A stretch of 64,000 bases of DNA, taken from Variovorax gracilis. GTDB lineage: Bacteria > Pseudomonadota > Gammaproteobacteria > Burkholderiales > Burkholderiaceae_C. The position numbers and the translations under genes were made by a program. Shown one piece after another: positions 49,330 to 55,724 of the stretch. The DNA lies in NCBI RefSeq assembly GCF_030317115.1, contig NZ_JASZYF010000010.1, positions 1 to 64,000 on the forward strand. Direction: 5' to 3'. The notes under the pieces are model-generated. The model was not told the DNA's origin, did no database searches, and saw only the letters and a list, made by a program, of their open reading frames with translations. The stretch's first letter is position 1. Every line of letters starts with the position of its first letter.

Positions 49330-50877
49330 ATGAACTTGAGCCGCAGAGATTTGAACCGGGCCGCACTGTGGCTGGCATTGGGGAACTGGGCCGCGCCCTT
49401 GCGCGCCGAAGAGAAGCCGGCCCCGCGCTGGTCGTCGAACCCGTTCACGCTCGGCGTAGCGAGCGGCCAGCCTCGGCCGGACAGCGTCGTGCTGTGGACC
49501 CGGCTTGCGCCCGGGGGCGAGGAAGATGCCGCGCGTCATGCGAAGACCGCGTGCGCCGTCCAATACGAGATCTGTTCGGACGCGGCCTTGCGCCGGACCG
49601 TCGCCCGCGGCGAGGTGTTGACCGATGCATCGCGAGCGCTCAGCGTGCATGTCCACGCGCGGGGCCTGCAGCCGCAGCGCGACTACTGGTATCGCTTCAG
49701 GTGCGGCAACGCCGTCAGCCCGGTCGGCCATACGCGCACCGCGCCGTCGCCCGATGCGGATGTGCGGCGCCTGCGCTTCGCGCTCGCTTCCTGCCAGCAC
49801 TACGAGCAGGGCTACTTCAGGTCGCATCGGGAAATCGCCGGCCGCGAACTGGATTTCGTGCTTTTCGTCGGCGACTACATCTACGAAGGCAGCAGCCCGG
49901 CCTACGAGGTGCGCAAGCACGGCACCCGGACTCCGTACACCCTCGACGCCTACCGCGACCGCCATGCGCTCTACAAGGGCGATGCCGATCTGCAGGCTGC
50001 CCATGCTGCGCATCCATGGATCCTGACCTGGGACGACCACGAGGTCGTCAACGACTATGCCGGCGACCGGGAGCCGGCCCGCGACGATCCCGAGCGTTTC
50101 CTGCGCCGCCGCGCAGCGGCCTACCAGGCCTACTTCGAGCACATGCCGCTGCTGATTCCGCCGCAGGGCAGCGCGATGCGGATTCATGACCGCTACACCT
50201 GGGGCCGCCTGGCCGAGCTCTGGACGCTCGACTGCCGGCAATACCGCAGCCGCCATGGCTGCCCCGATCCCGAGCGTGACGTCGGCCGCACGGTCATCGG
50301 CTGCGCGGAACTTGCAGAGCGCTCACGCACGATGCTCGGCGCCGAACAGGAGCGCTGGCTGGCACAAGGCCTGGCCGCTTCGACCCGGCAGTGGAAGCTG
50401 CTCGGCCAGTCCTCGCAGGTCAGCGCCACCGGAATCGACACGCCCGAAGGCCGCAAGGTCTGGACCGATGGATGGGACGGCTACCCCGAGGCTCGTCGAC
50501 GCTTGCTGGATGGCGCCCACAACGCAGGCGTGCGCAATCTGGTGGCGTTCGGCGGCGACGTGCACCGCCATGCCGCAGCCGACCTTCGCGTGGTGCCGAA
50601 CGACAGCGCTTCGCCCGTCGTGGCCACTGAATTCGTCGGTGGCTCGGTGACTTCCAAGGGTGCCAGCATGGCCGCCATGGCGCGCATGCGGCGCGACAAC
50701 CCCGACGTGGCGCATGCGCGGGGCGACCAGCGCGGCCATGCGTTCGTGGACATCACGCCTCGACAACTGCAGTGCGAGTTTCGCGCCACCGCGCACCCGG
50801 TGCTGGCCGATGCGGCCTTCGACACGCAGGCCCGCTTCGTGGTCGAGACGGGCCGCGCTGGCCTTCAATCAGCCTGA
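49330..50877 (+). CDS. PhoD-type alkaline phosphatase (Tat-exported)
   Basis: A 515-residue PhoD-like phosphatase/phosphodiesterase. The N-terminus MNLSRRDLNRAALWLALG has the twin-arginine motif SRRDL. Metal-binding segments are FALASC, FVGDYIYEG, WDDHEVVNDY and FGGDVHRH, as in PhoD with Fe3+/Ca2+. It releases phosphate from esters outside the cytoplasm. No phosphate box was recognised upstream. The start at 49330 gives the Tat signal directly. Its 3' end overlaps the AraC gene end by 9 bp. Confidence 0.92.
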   Translation: MNLSRRDLNRAALWLALGNWAAPLRAEEKPAPRWSSNPFTLGVASGQPRPDSVVLWTRLAPGGEEDAARHAKTACAVQYEICSDAALRRTVARGEVLTDASRALSVHVHARGLQPQRDYWYRFRCGNAVSPVGHTRTAPSPDADVRRLRFALASCQHYEQGYFRSHREIAGRELDFVLFVGDYIYEGSSPAYEVRKHGTRTPYTLDAYRDRHALYKGDADLQAAHAAHPWILTWDDHEVVNDYAGDREPARDDPERFLRRRAAAYQAYFEHMPLLIPPQGSAMRIHDRYTWGRLAELWTLDCRQYRSRHGCPDPERDVGRTVIGCAELAERSRTMLGAEQERWLAQGLAASTRQWKLLGQSSQVSATGIDTPEGRKVWTDGWDGYPEARRRLLDGAHNAGVRNLVAFGGDVHRHAAADLRVVPNDSASPVVATEFVGGSVTSKGASMAAMARMRRDNPDVAHARGDQRGHAFVDITPRQLQCEFRATAHPVLADAAFDTQARFVVETGRAGLQSA

Positions 50878-51798
50878 GACCTGCGTGCGCATGGCCTGGG
50901 CCTCGTTGCGAAACTGCCGCGGCGTGACCCCGGTCCACTGCCGGAACCGGCGGCCGAAGTAGACGGCGTCGCCGAAGCCGCATCGGTGCGCGACATCGCC
51001 GATGCGGTCGGTGGAGGTCAGCAGCAGTTCCTTCGCATGGTCCAGTCGCCGCTCGGTCACGAGTTCGGTGAAGGTGCGATCGGTCTGCTTCTTCAGCAGG
51101 TGCGCGAGGTAGTTGGGCGACAGCATGGCGGCGGCCGCCGCATCGTTGAGCGACATTTCCTCGTGCAGGTGTTCACGCACGTAGCGCATGACGCGTTGCA
51201 GCGCGTCGTGCCGCGAACTGCGGCCGCTGTGGCGTGCCGCATGTTCCAGCAGTTGCGCTTCCCGCCGCTGGCAAGCCAGTCCGAGCAGTTGCAGCAGGAT
51301 GCCGCGAATCGCACCTTGCGTACCGAAGGAGCGGGCCTGGTTCAACGCGGTCAACTCGTCCAGCCAGCCGAGGATGCGGGCGAAGTCCGTGTCGCCGAAA
51401 TGGAAGTCGACGTATTCCTGAAAGAGAAACGGCGCCAGTTCCGGCAGGCGGGCGATGGAGACTTCTTCGAGGTCCAGCGCTTCCACGTCGAGTTCCGGCC
51501 AGAGAAAGCCCTGGTCGAAATTGATGATGGCGTAGCGGGAGCCGGGCGGATGCGGAACGACATGCACGCGATAGGGCAGCACGAAGCTCACATGGCCCGT
51601 GCCAAAGGGCCGCACCGCGCCGCCGATCACTTGCTGCGAGCCACCCTGAACGCTCACCTGAATCTGGAAGTACTCGTGCCGGTGCGGTCGCGCGAGAACG
51701 TCGCGGGCACCTTCGAATCGGATGTCGAAGTCGAGGTGGTTGGCACGCTCTTGCATGCCGTACAGGCGGAGGCTGGGATGGCGGGACGTCGTTGGCAT
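50869..51798 (-). CDS. AraC-family regulator with cupin sensor
   Basis: A 309-residue regulator. The N-terminal cupin-type effector domain (LARPHRHEYFQIQVSVQGGSQQV) is followed by a C-terminal AraC double helix-turn-helix (SLNDAAAAAMLSPNYLAHLLKKQTDRTFTELV and IGDVAHRCGFGDAVYFGRRFRQWTGVTPRQFR). The start at 51798 opens the cupin domain; a longer frame upstream has a basic, less likely extension. It is divergent from the FAH-family gene, with 115 bp between, and is its likely regulator. Confidence 0.9.
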   Translation of the reverse strand: MPTTSRHPSLRLYGMQERANHLDFDIRFEGARDVLARPHRHEYFQIQVSVQGGSQQVIGGAVRPFGTGHVSFVLPYRVHVVPHPPGSRYAIINFDQGFLWPELDVEALDLEEVSIARLPELAPFLFQEYVDFHFGDTDFARILGWLDELTALNQARSFGTQGAIRGILLQLLGLACQRREAQLLEHAARHSGRSSRHDALQRVMRYVREHLHEEMSLNDAAAAAMLSPNYLAHLLKKQTDRTFTELVTERRLDHAKELLLTSTDRIGDVAHRCGFGDAVYFGRRFRQWTGVTPRQFRNEAQAMRTQVSG

Positions 51799-51913
51799 CG
51801 GGCGATCGTAAGGGTGTGTGGGTTGCGTCCGTGTTCTGCGTAAATGCGTGCGGCATCGCGACCGCATACGGGTCCAGAATGAATCTTTTCAGAGCACCCC
51901 TAGGAGACAAGAC

Positions 51914-52705
51914 ATGTCCAGTTCACGTCGCGGCCTGCTGGCGACATCCGCCGCCATGGCCAGCGGAGCCCTCGTCGGTTGCGCACTGCCGGCCGGCGCC
52001 GCACGCTCCCCGAGCACGCCTTTCGAAGTGTCTTCGTCGACGATTCCGATCGTCGGCAGCGAGCAGGTTTTTCCGGTTCGCCGCATCTATTGCATCGGAC
52101 GCAACTACGCCGCACATGCGCGCGAGATGGGTTCCGATCCGACGCGCGAGCCGCCTTTCTTCTTCCAGAAGCCGGCGGATGCGATCCAGGTCGTCATGCC
52201 AGGGACCGTGCCCAACCATCCCTATCCGAGCCTGACGAAGAACTACCACTACGAGGCCGAACTGGTGGTCGCGTTGTCCAAGGGAGGAACCAACATCCCG
52301 ATCGAGAACGCGCTGTCGCATGTGTACGGTTACTCGCTGGGCCTGGACATGACGCGCCGGGACCTGCAGCGCGAGATGGGCGACCAGAAGAAGCCGTGGG
52401 AGATCGGCAAGAGCTTCGACAGCTCGGCGCCGATCGGGCCGATCCATCCGGTTGCGAAGGTGGGTCATTTCACCGATGGCGCGATCTGGCTCAAGGTCAA
52501 CGGCCAGACCAAGCAGAGCGCGACGCTCAAGCACATGATCTGGTCGGTGGCCGAGCAGATCAGCCGGTTGTCGCAGGCCTTCGAGCTGATGCCCGGAGAC
52601 ATCATCTATTCCGGTACGCCTGAGAACGTCGGGCCGGTGGTGCGCGGCGACTTGATCGAAATGCACATCGACGGGCTTCCGAACCTGTCGGTCCGCGTGG
52701 TCTGA
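51914..52705 (+). CDS. FAH-family hydrolase with Tat signal
   Basis: A 263-residue fumarylacetoacetate hydrolase-family protein. The catalytic domain is clear: RIYCIGRNYAAHAREMG, PFFFQKPADAI, HYEAELVVAL (metal-binding Glu) and PGDIIYSGTPENVGPV. The first 35 residues read as a twin-arginine signal (SSRRGLLATSAAMASGALVGCALP), which is rare in a family that is normally cytoplasmic. The start at 51914 has TAGGAGACA upstream. It probably acts on a fumarylpyruvate or related beta-diketone. It ends 10 bp from the convergent hydratase. Confidence 0.88.
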   Translation: MSSSRRGLLATSAAMASGALVGCALPAGAARSPSTPFEVSSSTIPIVGSEQVFPVRRIYCIGRNYAAHAREMGSDPTREPPFFFQKPADAIQVVMPGTVPNHPYPSLTKNYHYEAELVVALSKGGTNIPIENALSHVYGYSLGLDMTRRDLQREMGDQKKPWEIGKSFDSSAPIGPIHPVAKVGHFTDGAIWLKVNGQTKQSATLKHMIWSVAEQISRLSQAFELMPGDIIYSGTPENVGPVVRGDLIEMHIDGLPNLSVRVV

Positions 52706-52714
52706 TCCAGAGGC

Positions 52715-53470
52715 TCAGAGGCGGGCTTCGGCCCGCCCGATGCCCGGGAATTCGACAACCACCGTATCGCCCTTGCCAACGGGCAGCACGCCGACCCACG
52801 AACCGGTGGTGACCACGGTGCCGGCGGGCACGGTCGCGCCGTTGCGCGTCGCATGCCGCAGCCAGATCGGCAGCAGCCAGGCGGGATCGCCCATCGAGTG
52901 CGCGCCCTTGCGCAGATCGGTTGCGCTGGAGCCGATGCGGGTCTCGCACGTTTGCGCCGCCCAGTCGCGCGCGGAGTAAGGCACCCAATCACCCAGTACC
53001 AGCGCACCATGCGACTGCTGGTCCGCGAGGCGCAGCAGGGCCGAAGCATTCGCCGGGTGTTCCCAGCGTGAATCGACGATCTCGATCGAGACGGCCATCG
53101 CATCGATCAAGGCCGCCGCTGTCTCAGGCGTGAGCGCCGCGGCGCGCTCGGGCGTCACGGCTTCGCCGAGGCGCAGCGCGATCTCGGATTCGATGCCCGG
53201 CGCATTGAAATGCATGTCGCTGTAGTTCGCCGGGCTGGCGCGCACGCCGGCCGGCGGCAGTGGTGCGTGCGTCAGCACGGCATCACGCGAAGGACCGCCG
53301 GACTTCCAGTGGCCGGGAACGGCCGTGCCGAACCAGCCCATCGCCTGCGCCACTCGGTCCTGCACGCCATAGGCCTGCGCCGCGTCGCCCACGCCGTCCC
53401 GCCAGGCCGCCGCATCGAGTGCGCGACCCTCGCGCCAGGCCGATGCCAGGGATTCCGCCAGATCGGTCAT
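52715..53470 (-). CDS. 2-oxopent-4-enoate hydratase-like protein
   Basis: A 251-residue protein of the FAH-like hydratase branch (MhpD/HpaH/XylJ). WKSGGPSRDAVLTHAPL, the Glu-x-Glu in PGIESEIALRLG, the SIEIVDSR metal segment and VTTGSWVGVLPVGKGD mark it. Members hydrate 2-hydroxypenta-2,4-dienoate or decarboxylate 4-oxalocrotonate with Mg2+ or Mn2+. It overlaps the Bug gene by four bases (start on stop ATGA). No extradiol dioxygenase is nearby, so the substrate is likely imported or made by another branch. Confidence 0.85.
   Translation of the reverse strand: MTDLAESLASAWREGRALDAAAWRDGVGDAAQAYGVQDRVAQAMGWFGTAVPGHWKSGGPSRDAVLTHAPLPPAGVRASPANYSDMHFNAPGIESEIALRLGEAVTPERAAALTPETAAALIDAMAVSIEIVDSRWEHPANASALLRLADQQSHGALVLGDWVPYSARDWAAQTCETRIGSSATDLRKGAHSMGDPAWLLPIWLRHATRNGATVPAGTVVTTGSWVGVLPVGKGDTVVVEFPGIGRAEARL
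52720..52737. terminator. hairpin with TTCG loop between convergent genes
   Basis: GGCGGGC and GCCCGCC form a perfect 7-bp stem with a stable TTCG loop, 14 bp after the FAH stop and inside the last codons of the hydratase gene. It lacks a T tract. It may terminate or protect the plus-strand transcript. Confidence 0.45.
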
Positions 53471-54447
53471 GCGTCCACCTTCACCTTGCCGTCCTTGACG
53501 ACTCTCGCCCACTTGTCGATCTCGCTGGAGATGAACTTGGTGAACTTCTCGCGCGAGCCGCCGCCGTCCTCGGCGCCGTAGGTGTCGAGCCGCTCCTGCA
53601 CATCGGGCATGGCGAGAACCGTGTTGACGTCGCGATTGATCTTGTCGGCAATGCCCGTCGGCAGCTTGCCGGGGCCGGCGAGCCCGTACCAGGTGGTGGC
53701 CTCGAAGCCATCGAAGCCCTGCTCCTGCATGGTCGGAATGCCCGGGTGGCCCTTGGCGCGCTTGAGTCGTGTCTGGGCGACGCCGACCACCTTGCCGCTC
53801 TTCACGTGCGGGGTGGCGGCCGTCATCGTCTCGAAGCTGTACTGAATCTGGCTGCCCATCAGGTCGGCCAGCAACGGCCCGCTGCCCTTGTAGGGCACAT
53901 GCATTGCATCGACCTTGGCCTGCAGCTTGAACATCTCCAGCGCCAGATGCTGCGCGGAGCCGGCACCGGCCGAGCCGAAGCTGACCTTGCCCGGTTCCGC
54001 GGCGCACAGGGCCACGATGTCCTTGACCGTCACGGCCTTCTGCGTGGGGCTCGCGATCAGCAGATTGGGCGTCACGCCGACCAGCACGATCGGCACGAAG
54101 TCGCGCTCGACGTTGTAGCGCAGCTTGGGCTGCAGGCTCGGCGCCAGGGCATGGCTGTTGATGTGGGCCATCAACAGCGTGCTGCCATCCGCCGGCTGGG
54201 TCGCCACGTATTCGGCCGCCAACACGCCCGCCACGCCGCCCTTGTTCTCGACGATGACGGTCTGATTCCACATGACGGCCAGCTTCTGGGCGACCACCCG
54301 GGCCAGCGCGTCGGTGCCGCCGCCCGGCGGAAAGCCGACCACGATGCGCACGGGGCCCGAGGGCCAGTCCTGTGCGAACACGCTGGGCACGCCGAGGGTC
54401 GCGGCCGCCGCCGCGCCTGCGGCCTGGATGAAGGAACGTCGTTGCAT
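53467..54447 (-). CDS. Bug-family tripartite tricarboxylate transporter receptor
   Basis: A 326-residue Bug protein. The N-terminus MQRRSFIQAAGAAAAATLG carries a twin-arginine-like QRRSFI before the hydrophobic part, so Tat export is possible, as for some Bug proteins. WPSGPVRIVVGFPPGGGTDALAR and VIVENKGGVAGVLAAEYVATQPADG follow. CGGAGACAAC precedes the ATG. It lies 35 bp after the aminotransferase gene and overlaps the hydratase by four bases. The ligand is likely the acid handled by this unit. Confidence 0.92.
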   Translation of the reverse strand: MQRRSFIQAAGAAAAATLGVPSVFAQDWPSGPVRIVVGFPPGGGTDALARVVAQKLAVMWNQTVIVENKGGVAGVLAAEYVATQPADGSTLLMAHINSHALAPSLQPKLRYNVERDFVPIVLVGVTPNLLIASPTQKAVTVKDIVALCAAEPGKVSFGSAGAGSAQHLALEMFKLQAKVDAMHVPYKGSGPLLADLMGSQIQYSFETMTAATPHVKSGKVVGVAQTRLKRAKGHPGIPTMQEQGFDGFEATTWYGLAGPGKLPTGIADKINRDVNTVLAMPDVQERLDTYGAEDGGGSREKFTKFISSEIDKWARVVKDGKVKVDA

Positions 54448-54482
54448 GTTGTCTCCGTTTTCTTGAATGAACGCGCGAGCGC

Positions 54483-55724
54483 TCAGGCCGCCTTCTGCAA
54501 GGCGGCCGGCGCGGCATGGCCGGCGAAGTAGTCCATCGTGGCCTGCACGCCGCTGCCGGCGAGCTTCACGCCGGAGAGCTTCAGCCCCATCTCGACGCCG
54601 GCGACCATCGCGACGAGCGTCAGGTCGTTGCTGTCGCCGAGGTGGCCCATGCGGAACATGCGGCCCTTGAGCTTGCCCAGGCCGGTGCCCAGCGACAGGT
54701 CGAAGCGCTGGTGGATGAGGCGGCGCACCGCATCCGCATCCACGCCTTCGGGAGTGATCACGCCGGTGAGCACCGGCGAGTAGACGGCCGGATCGGCACA
54801 CTGGATCGGCAGGCCCCAGGCGTTGACCGCGGCGCGGACGCCGGCCGCCCAGCGCTGGTGGCGCGCGAACACGTTGTCCAGGCCCTCGCCGAGGATCATG
54901 TCCAGCGCTTCCGAGAGGCCATAGAGCAGGTTGGTGTTCGGCGTGTAGGGCCAGTAGCCGTCCTTGTTCATCTCGACGATCTCGTCCCAGGCCCAGAAGG
55001 AGCGGGGCAGCTTCGCGCTCTTCATCGCTTCGAGAGCGCGCGGCGAGATGGCGTTGAAGCTGATGCCCGGCGGCAGCATCAGGCCTTTCTGCGAGCCGCT
55101 GATGGTGACGTCCACGCCCCATTCGTCGTGGCGGAAGTCGGCGCTGGCGAGGCCGGAGATGCTGTCGACCATCAGCAGGGCAGGGTGGCCCGCCGCATCG
55201 ATGGCGCGGCGAACCGACGCGATGTCGGAGGTGACGCCGGTCGAGGTTTCGTTGTGCACCACGCACACGGCCTTGATCTTCTTCTCCGTGTCCTTGCGCA
55301 GCCGCGCCTCGATCAGGTCCGCCTGCACGCCACGGCGCCAGCCGGCTGCCTGCGGCAGGTGCTCGTCGGTGCCGTTGAAGGCCAGGAACTCGGTCGAGAT
55401 GCCCAGCCGGGTGGCCATCTTCTGCCAGAGGGATGCGAAGTGACCGGTTTCGTACATCAGCACGTGATCGCCGGGGCTCAGCGTGTTCGACAGCGCGGCC
55501 TCCCACGCGCCGGTGCCGGAAGCCGGATAGATGATGACCGGGTGCTGCGTCTTGAAGATCTTGCGGATGCCTGTGAGCACCTGCCGGCCGAGCGTGCCGA
55601 ATTCGGGCCCGCGATGGTCGATGGTGGGCAGGCTCATTGCGCGCAGGATGCGATCGGGCACCGGGCTCGGGCCCGGGATCTGGAGGAAGTGCCTACCGGT
55701 GGGATGGGAGTCGAGTTGAAGCAT
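54483..55724 (-). CDS. serine-glyoxylate aminotransferase-like enzyme (class V)
   Basis: A 413-residue class V PLP aminotransferase. LQIPGPSPVPDRILRAMS and ISGSQKGLMLPPG (the PLP lysine) match alanine/serine-glyoxylate aminotransferases, as do the FWAWDEIVEMNKDGYWPYTPN segment and GHLGD near the end. It moves an amino group between an amino acid and a 2-oxo acid such as glyoxylate. It is the first gene of the aminotransferase-Bug-hydratase unit and is divergent from the GntR gene. The substrate may differ from serine. Confidence 0.9.
   Translation of the reverse strand: MLQLDSHPTGRHFLQIPGPSPVPDRILRAMSLPTIDHRGPEFGTLGRQVLTGIRKIFKTQHPVIIYPASGTGAWEAALSNTLSPGDHVLMYETGHFASLWQKMATRLGISTEFLAFNGTDEHLPQAAGWRRGVQADLIEARLRKDTEKKIKAVCVVHNETSTGVTSDIASVRRAIDAAGHPALLMVDSISGLASADFRHDEWGVDVTISGSQKGLMLPPGISFNAISPRALEAMKSAKLPRSFWAWDEIVEMNKDGYWPYTPNTNLLYGLSEALDMILGEGLDNVFARHQRWAAGVRAAVNAWGLPIQCADPAVYSPVLTGVITPEGVDADAVRRLIHQRFDLSLGTGLGKLKGRMFRMGHLGDSNDLTLVAMVAGVEMGLKLSGVKLAGSGVQATMDYFAGHAAPAALQKAA

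Follow-up and report, generated by a model that had tools for sequence, protein, structure and literature searches.

A leadered branch of the FAH family in Variovorax gracilis and relatives: candidate Tat-exported, often lipid-anchored enzymes

FAH-family enzymes are usually regarded as cytoplasmic or mitochondrial. An FAH-family gene of Variovorax gracilis was found to encode a complete catalytic domain behind a twin-arginine leader with a lipobox, and the leadered form proved to be characteristic of a whole branch of the family and not an oddity of one gene. Most probably (a probability of roughly 0.6 was assigned), the product is an FAH-fold enzyme that is exported in folded form by the Tat system, probably lipidated at Cys23, and located in the periplasm, where it would act on a 2,4-dioxo acid of the acylpyruvate type or on an acid resembling oxaloacetate. 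The window, i.e., the whole stretch of DNA that was analysed, comprised 64,000 nucleotides of contig NZ_JASZYF010000010.1.

Gene and catalytic domain

The reading frame encoded 263 amino acids plus stop and was located at 51914-52705 on the forward strand. Frame and coordinates, and the assignment to an FAH-family protein with a twin-arginine leader, agreed with an earlier sequence-only reading of the window. A ribosome-binding site, AGGAGA (51902-51907, +), was read directly from the sequence 5' of the ATG at 51914. The FAA_hydrolase profile (PF01557) matched residues 58-263 (52085-52702, +) over profile positions 2-214 of 214, with an E-value of 3.1e-55 and a score of 187.6 bits against a curated cut-off of 23.9. 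The match was thus full-length, and the earlier statement that a whole catalytic domain follows the leader was upheld by this coverage and by the catalytic residues described below. None of the NCBIfam profiles matched the protein above its curated cut-off, and therefore no specific function was assigned. The host genome contained 24 matches to PF01557; four paralogues close to the window protein (39-54% identity) started without a leader.

Leader peptide

The predicted Tat/lipoprotein signal peptide comprised residues 1-22 (MSSSRRGLLATSAAMASGALVG; 51914-51979, +). It was supported by sequence, by conservation within the branch, and by a pLDDT below 50 over residues 1-25 of the AlphaFold model. 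The N-terminus of the protein, MSSSRRGLLATSAAMASGALVGC, showed two arginines at residues 5-6 (51926-51931, +), a hydrophobic stretch, and the lipobox LVGC at residues 20-23 (51971-51982, +) followed by Ala at position +2. Cys23, the predicted lipidated residue, was placed directly after the hydrophobic stretch, as in bacterial lipoproteins. In Tat-exported lipoproteins in general, a twin-arginine leader and then a lipobox are present within the first 25 residues, and the window protein shares this arrangement. The leader cited in the sequence-only reading corresponded to residues 3-24, and the lipobox had been missed.

Conservation of the leader was assayed in 103 proteins of at least about 64% identity, the window protein included (L103 was at 63.7%). 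The set combined loci from whole-genome searches with relatives from a contig search, which covered the best 80 of 413 confirmed relatives from Beta- and Alphaproteobacteria and favoured leadered matches, as one of its six search peptides was derived from the leader. Five further loci from a phylum search (L149-L153) were kept outside the counts. All 103 proteins carried an [RK]R leader, and the second arginine of the pair was kept throughout. By pattern, 88 pairs were RR and 15 were KR, one of the latter (L078) being KRR in fact; the twin-arginine pattern was passed by 98 proteins, and the remaining five have RR at the N-terminus. The KR pair, present in 15/103 by this pattern count, is the weaker predicted Tat signal. 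The residue after the arginines varied freely (G 23, N 21, H 18, and others; n=103), and the next two were mostly L, F, I or M, as is expected of Tat signals.

Homologues at 34-63% identity did not pass the twin-arginine pattern (0/31). An order-level whole-genome search, which was free of the leader-peptide bias, gave the same division: all five matches of at least 68% identity (own gene included) were leadered, and the 26 lower matches examined were all leaderless. A single leader would be little proof, because the loose pattern also matched 70 of 538 neighbouring gene calls. Conservation is decisive here, and a chance leader was rejected since the leader was kept in 103/103. Conservation of a twin-arginine leader among orthologues, as known from Tat substrates, was thus found, and tatC and a member of the lspA family were both detected in the host genome. 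Since the Tat system transports folded, cofactor-loaded proteins, this route would suit a metal-dependent FAH enzyme.

A standard lipobox was present in 79 of the 103 proteins. The residue before the cysteine was Gly in 76 and Ala in three of these (the pattern limited this position to G, A, S or N), and position +2 was occupied by Ala (75), Val (3) or Ser (1). According to the E. coli rule, Ala at +2 favours the outer membrane. Because 24/103 proteins were without a standard lipobox, lipidation cannot be branch-wide; 23 of these had no cysteine in the leader at all, and L080 had one in a non-standard box. It is conceivable, if rather unlikely for the window protein, that export is not followed by lipidation, and that signal peptidase I cleaves close to the AGA that follows Cys23, releasing a soluble periplasmic enzyme. 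Such processing would be in line with the proteins lacking a standard lipobox, many of which have AxA-like sites, and with the AGA in the window leader itself. It is opposed by the clean LVGC with its Ala at +2 in the window protein, and by the strong preference for Gly before the cysteine in the branch. Since the leader bears a lipobox, a membrane-anchored lipoprotein is likelier than a soluble periplasmic enzyme. Of the location proposed in the sequence-only reading, Tat export of an intact FAH domain is therefore well supported (leader kept across Beta- and Alphaproteobacteria; tatC present), and the soluble periplasmic state has become less likely. The product of the window gene is likely a Tat-exported lipoprotein.

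Distribution and phylogeny

The leadered set spanned Comamonadaceae, Oxalobacteraceae, Polynucleobacter, Bradyrhizobium, Bosea and Roseomonas. A tree was calculated from 134 proteins with 210 columns of the mature domain, the leader being excluded. One branch, with an SH-aLRT value of 99, split off all 103 leadered proteins; the tree was the product of a quick search, in which 56 of 127 inner branches were below 80, and L080 and several leaderless rows drew long-branch warnings. The presence or absence of the leader needed one change of state on this tree, and the necessity of several gains was rejected on these grounds. The leadered set is a clade provided that the tree is rooted within the leaderless proteins, as it is by midpoint rooting. 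Most simply, the branch would have arisen once from leaderless, fumarylpyruvate-hydrolase-like ancestors. The lipobox group needed six changes, and repeated loss or gain of the lipobox is therefore possible.

In the genus, 29 of 61 genomes (own genome included) had a match at an E-value of 1e-100 or better; the corresponding figures were 34 of 200 for the family, 5 of 120 for the order, and 7 of 299 for the phylum. The leadered FAH gene is an accessory gene. Both forms were observed together in one locus (L102, 1501-3042), where a leaderless homologue with 57% identity to the window protein was located about 40 bases upstream of the leadered gene on the same strand, in one apparent operon.

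Active site, fold and closest known enzymes

The catalytic centre of FAHD1 was taken from the available passages of PMC7056447, which list G24, R25, H30, E33, K47, E71, E73, D102, Q109 and K123. All ten residues had equivalents in the window protein (G62, R63, H68, E71, K86, E114, E116, D145, Q152 and K166), among them the metal ligands and the catalytic dyad. H68, E71, E114, E116, Q152 and K166, together with R149 (R106 of FAHD1), were kept in 103/103 leadered proteins, and D145 in 102/103; G62, R63 and K86 were invariant in an alignment of 60 sequences. A broken catalytic domain was rejected, as the catalytic residues are kept.

An AlphaFold model built on the 60-sequence alignment had a mean pLDDT of 88.1 and a pTM of 0.83. 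The best match among solved folds was 6j5y, a fumarylpyruvate hydrolase of Pseudomonas aeruginosa solved with pyruvate and Mn2+, which gave a TM of 0.94 by target length and 57% identity in the fold alignment; it was followed by 4maq, a putative fumarylpyruvate hydrolase of Burkholderia cenocepacia, and by FAHD1. Fold and catalytic residues are shared with the two bacterial proteins. The leadered proteins differ from fumarylpyruvate hydrolase by the Tat leader, by the lipobox in most of them, and by 23 positions that are fixed differently. FAHD1, an acylpyruvase and oxaloacetate decarboxylase, was more distant, with a TM of about 0.85 by target length and about 40% identity, and is described in the accessible part of PMC12176266 as a mitochondrial protein.

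The 23 positions were fixed (at least 90%) in the leadered set for a residue that was rare (at most 20%) in the 31 leaderless proteins; closely related leadered proteins were compared here with a mixed leaderless set, and common ancestry explains part of the difference. Asn238 was present in 102/103 leadered proteins and Gly in 31/31 leaderless ones; Gln85, His102, Leu107, Ser167 and Gln215 were likewise fixed. Five of the 23 positions flanked catalytic residues, which is of marginal significance (hypergeometric p = 0.027). Since the catalytic residues of FAHD1 are kept and 23 positions are nevertheless fixed differently, an active enzyme with another substrate is suggested. The pattern suggests that the mechanism was retained and the specificity changed, with shared ancestry accounting for part of the signal.

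Linkage to the gentisate pathway is usual for fumarylpyruvate hydrolases, although it does not strictly define them. No gentisate dioxygenase was present among the window neighbours scanned, i.e., the AraC-type regulator, the convergent hydratase/TctC/aminotransferase set, a GntR regulator, an FAD oxidase, and a Gate-domain protein. A match was present in 1079 plasmid records; in the three examined, leaderless homologues (50-55% identity; annotated with about 231-232 amino acids) adjoined genes for gentisate 1,2-dioxygenase, 3-hydroxybenzoate 6-monooxygenase or maleylacetoacetate isomerase. The leaderless kin resemble gentisate-pathway fumarylpyruvate hydrolases.

Regulator and neighbouring genes

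An AraC-type regulator gene was located divergently to the FAH gene at 50869-51867 (-; Pfam HTH_18, HTH_AraC and AraC_binding). These coordinates give the longest reading frame, and the true start is perhaps internal. In the genus, a divergent AraC-type neighbour was present in 21 of 29 gene-bearing genomes, with 47-177 bases between the match ends. An AraC-type homologue occurred in 27 of 29 gene-bearing and in 5 of 32 gene-lacking genomes (Fisher p = 4.6e-10, kinship being ignored). The regulator probably controls the leadered FAH gene in this genus. A scan of 51700-52800 for promoters and terminators gave no hit. At locus L021 (3570-4899), genes for the beta and alpha subunits of protocatechuate 3,4-dioxygenase were observed just past the AraC-type gene adjoining the leadered gene.

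On the other side of the window gene, a convergent set was located at 52715-55724 (-), its end separated by nine bases from that of the FAH gene. It comprised a PF01557 hydratase sharing the FAH fold, a TctC binding protein with an RR leader of its own, and a class V aminotransferase.

Same-strand partners were counted in the 71 of 81 loci in which the gene of interest was called; gene calls were made with a simple home-made caller, which missed some genes (in L100, for instance, an FAH gene), and labels such as TctC-like and DctP-like were given by similarity to a few reference genes. No close same-strand partner was present in 32 of the 71 loci. TctC-like genes made up 11 of 78 operon mates, in nine of the 71 loci, versus 8 of 469 other genes (p = 7e-6, kinship being ignored). 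A second FAH gene accounted for 4 of 78 operon mates versus 1 of 469 other genes (p = 0.002), all four cases belonging to one lineage (L036, L042, L043 and L055); relatives are not independent samples. The gene order in this lineage was TctC, second FAH and leadered FAH, with a dioxygenase gene added before the leadered gene in L036, and a similar gene set was present in L100 (Polynucleobacter).

In L036 and L064, a catechol-dioxygenase-type gene was located directly upstream of the leadered gene on the same strand. In L045 and L061, this place was taken by a flavin monooxygenase gene; the second gene downstream was TctC-like, and an amidohydrolase gene was close by. The latter two loci (L061, 171-8413; L045, 1403-5476), in which the flavin monooxygenase matched NF005720, appeared to be aromatic-degradation operons. 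Flavin monooxygenase and ring-cleaving dioxygenase genes each accounted for 2 of 78 operon mates versus 2 of 469 other genes, which was not significant (p = 0.10). When orientation was disregarded, 19 of the 130 gene calls adjacent to the leadered gene belonged to three families of solute-binding proteins, as compared with 12 of the 130 distant ones (p = 0.25; count limited to the 25 commonest families), and a general excess of such proteins beside the leadered gene was rejected.

In eight loci (L046, L050, L053, L057, L059, L068, L071 and L076), a DctP-like gene was divergent on one side of the leadered gene and a metallo-beta-lactamase-family gene followed on the other.

The window gene itself was without TctC-like, second-FAH or ring-enzyme partners in an operon. 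For this reason, and because the excess of binding proteins was not significant, the link to uptake is suggestive only. The role put forward in the sequence-only reading, in which keto acids outside the cell are acted on prior to their uptake, is a plausible hypothesis.

The substrate could also be oxaloacetate: the enzyme would then remove oxaloacetate in the periplasm as a decarboxylase or tautomerase with a housekeeping role, as proposed for FAHD1, and would not cleave a dioxo acid derived from aromatic compounds. This is unlikely. It is consistent with the retention of all listed FAHD1 residues, FAHD1 being described as an oxaloacetate decarboxylase and tautomerase (PMC12176266, available part), and with DctP-type binding proteins among the adjacent gene calls (11/130). 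Against it stand the gentisate-type pathway genes adjoining leaderless kin in the three plasmid records, the genes for ring-modifying or ring-cleaving enzymes that immediately precede the leadered gene on its strand in L036, L045, L061 and L064 (in numbers that are not significant), and the opposite orientation of all 12 adjacent DctP-like genes, as assigned by similarity to a few reference genes.

Proposed function

In the preferred reading of a Tat-exported lipoprotein enzyme, the FAH-fold protein would fold and acquire its divalent metal while still in the cytoplasm and would then be exported by Tat. Cleavage before Cys23 and subsequent lipidation would probably anchor it on the periplasmic side of a membrane. 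A 2,4-dioxo acid of the acylpyruvate type, or else an acid resembling oxaloacetate, would come from outside and would most likely be cleaved, decarboxylated or tautomerised there, and the products would then be taken up. A more specific version can be offered tentatively for the whole branch: the enzymes, often lipid-anchored, may cleave C-C bonds of dioxo acids in the periplasm before uptake, the products being passed on to binding proteins of the TctC or TRAP type.

It is very unlikely that the leader is vestigial or misread and that the working protein is cytoplasmic, owing to an internal start or inefficient export. Characterised fumarylpyruvate hydrolases do act in the cytoplasm, and some relatives share apparent operons with cytoplasmic aromatic-degradation enzymes; yet the arginine pair is kept in every leadered protein while the next position varies freely, and the start codon of the window gene is preceded by a good ribosome-binding site. 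A role as a binding or sensing protein that is no longer an enzyme, to which the differently fixed positions such as Asn238 and the marginal clustering of five of them beside catalytic residues might point, is just as improbable, as all metal and catalytic positions are kept.

The proteins form a real branch, predicted to be exported, of the already known FAH family. If the tentative, more specific version is true, a reaction known from cytoplasmic aromatic catabolism would have been moved outside the inner membrane. The exported copies are likely annotated merely as 'FAH family protein'; the conserved export leader, the kept catalytic residues and the changed surroundings together would point to a separate function that is masked by automatic annotation. 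Periplasmic dioxo-acid chemistry is predicted for Variovorax and for many related environmental bacteria.

A search of the open-licence literature for an exported FAH-family enzyme of this kind (Tat, periplasm, signal peptide, lipoprotein) gave none in the passages available, which is weak evidence of novelty. PMC5839243 reports traces of an FAH protein in a Ruegeria exoproteome; its accessible passages describe no exported enzyme of this kind. PMC13390454, PMC3644233, PMC8778405, PMC9230146 and PMC5758756 mention FAH or fumarylpyruvate hydrolase as well as Tat, periplasm or signal peptide; their accessible passages describe no exported FAH enzyme.

Elsewhere in the window, a PhoD-like phosphatase of 515 amino acids (PF09423, PF16655) with a twin-arginine leader of its own, MNLSRRDLNRAALWLALG, was encoded at 49330-50877 (+); the listed start of its reading frame, 47899, is far too early.
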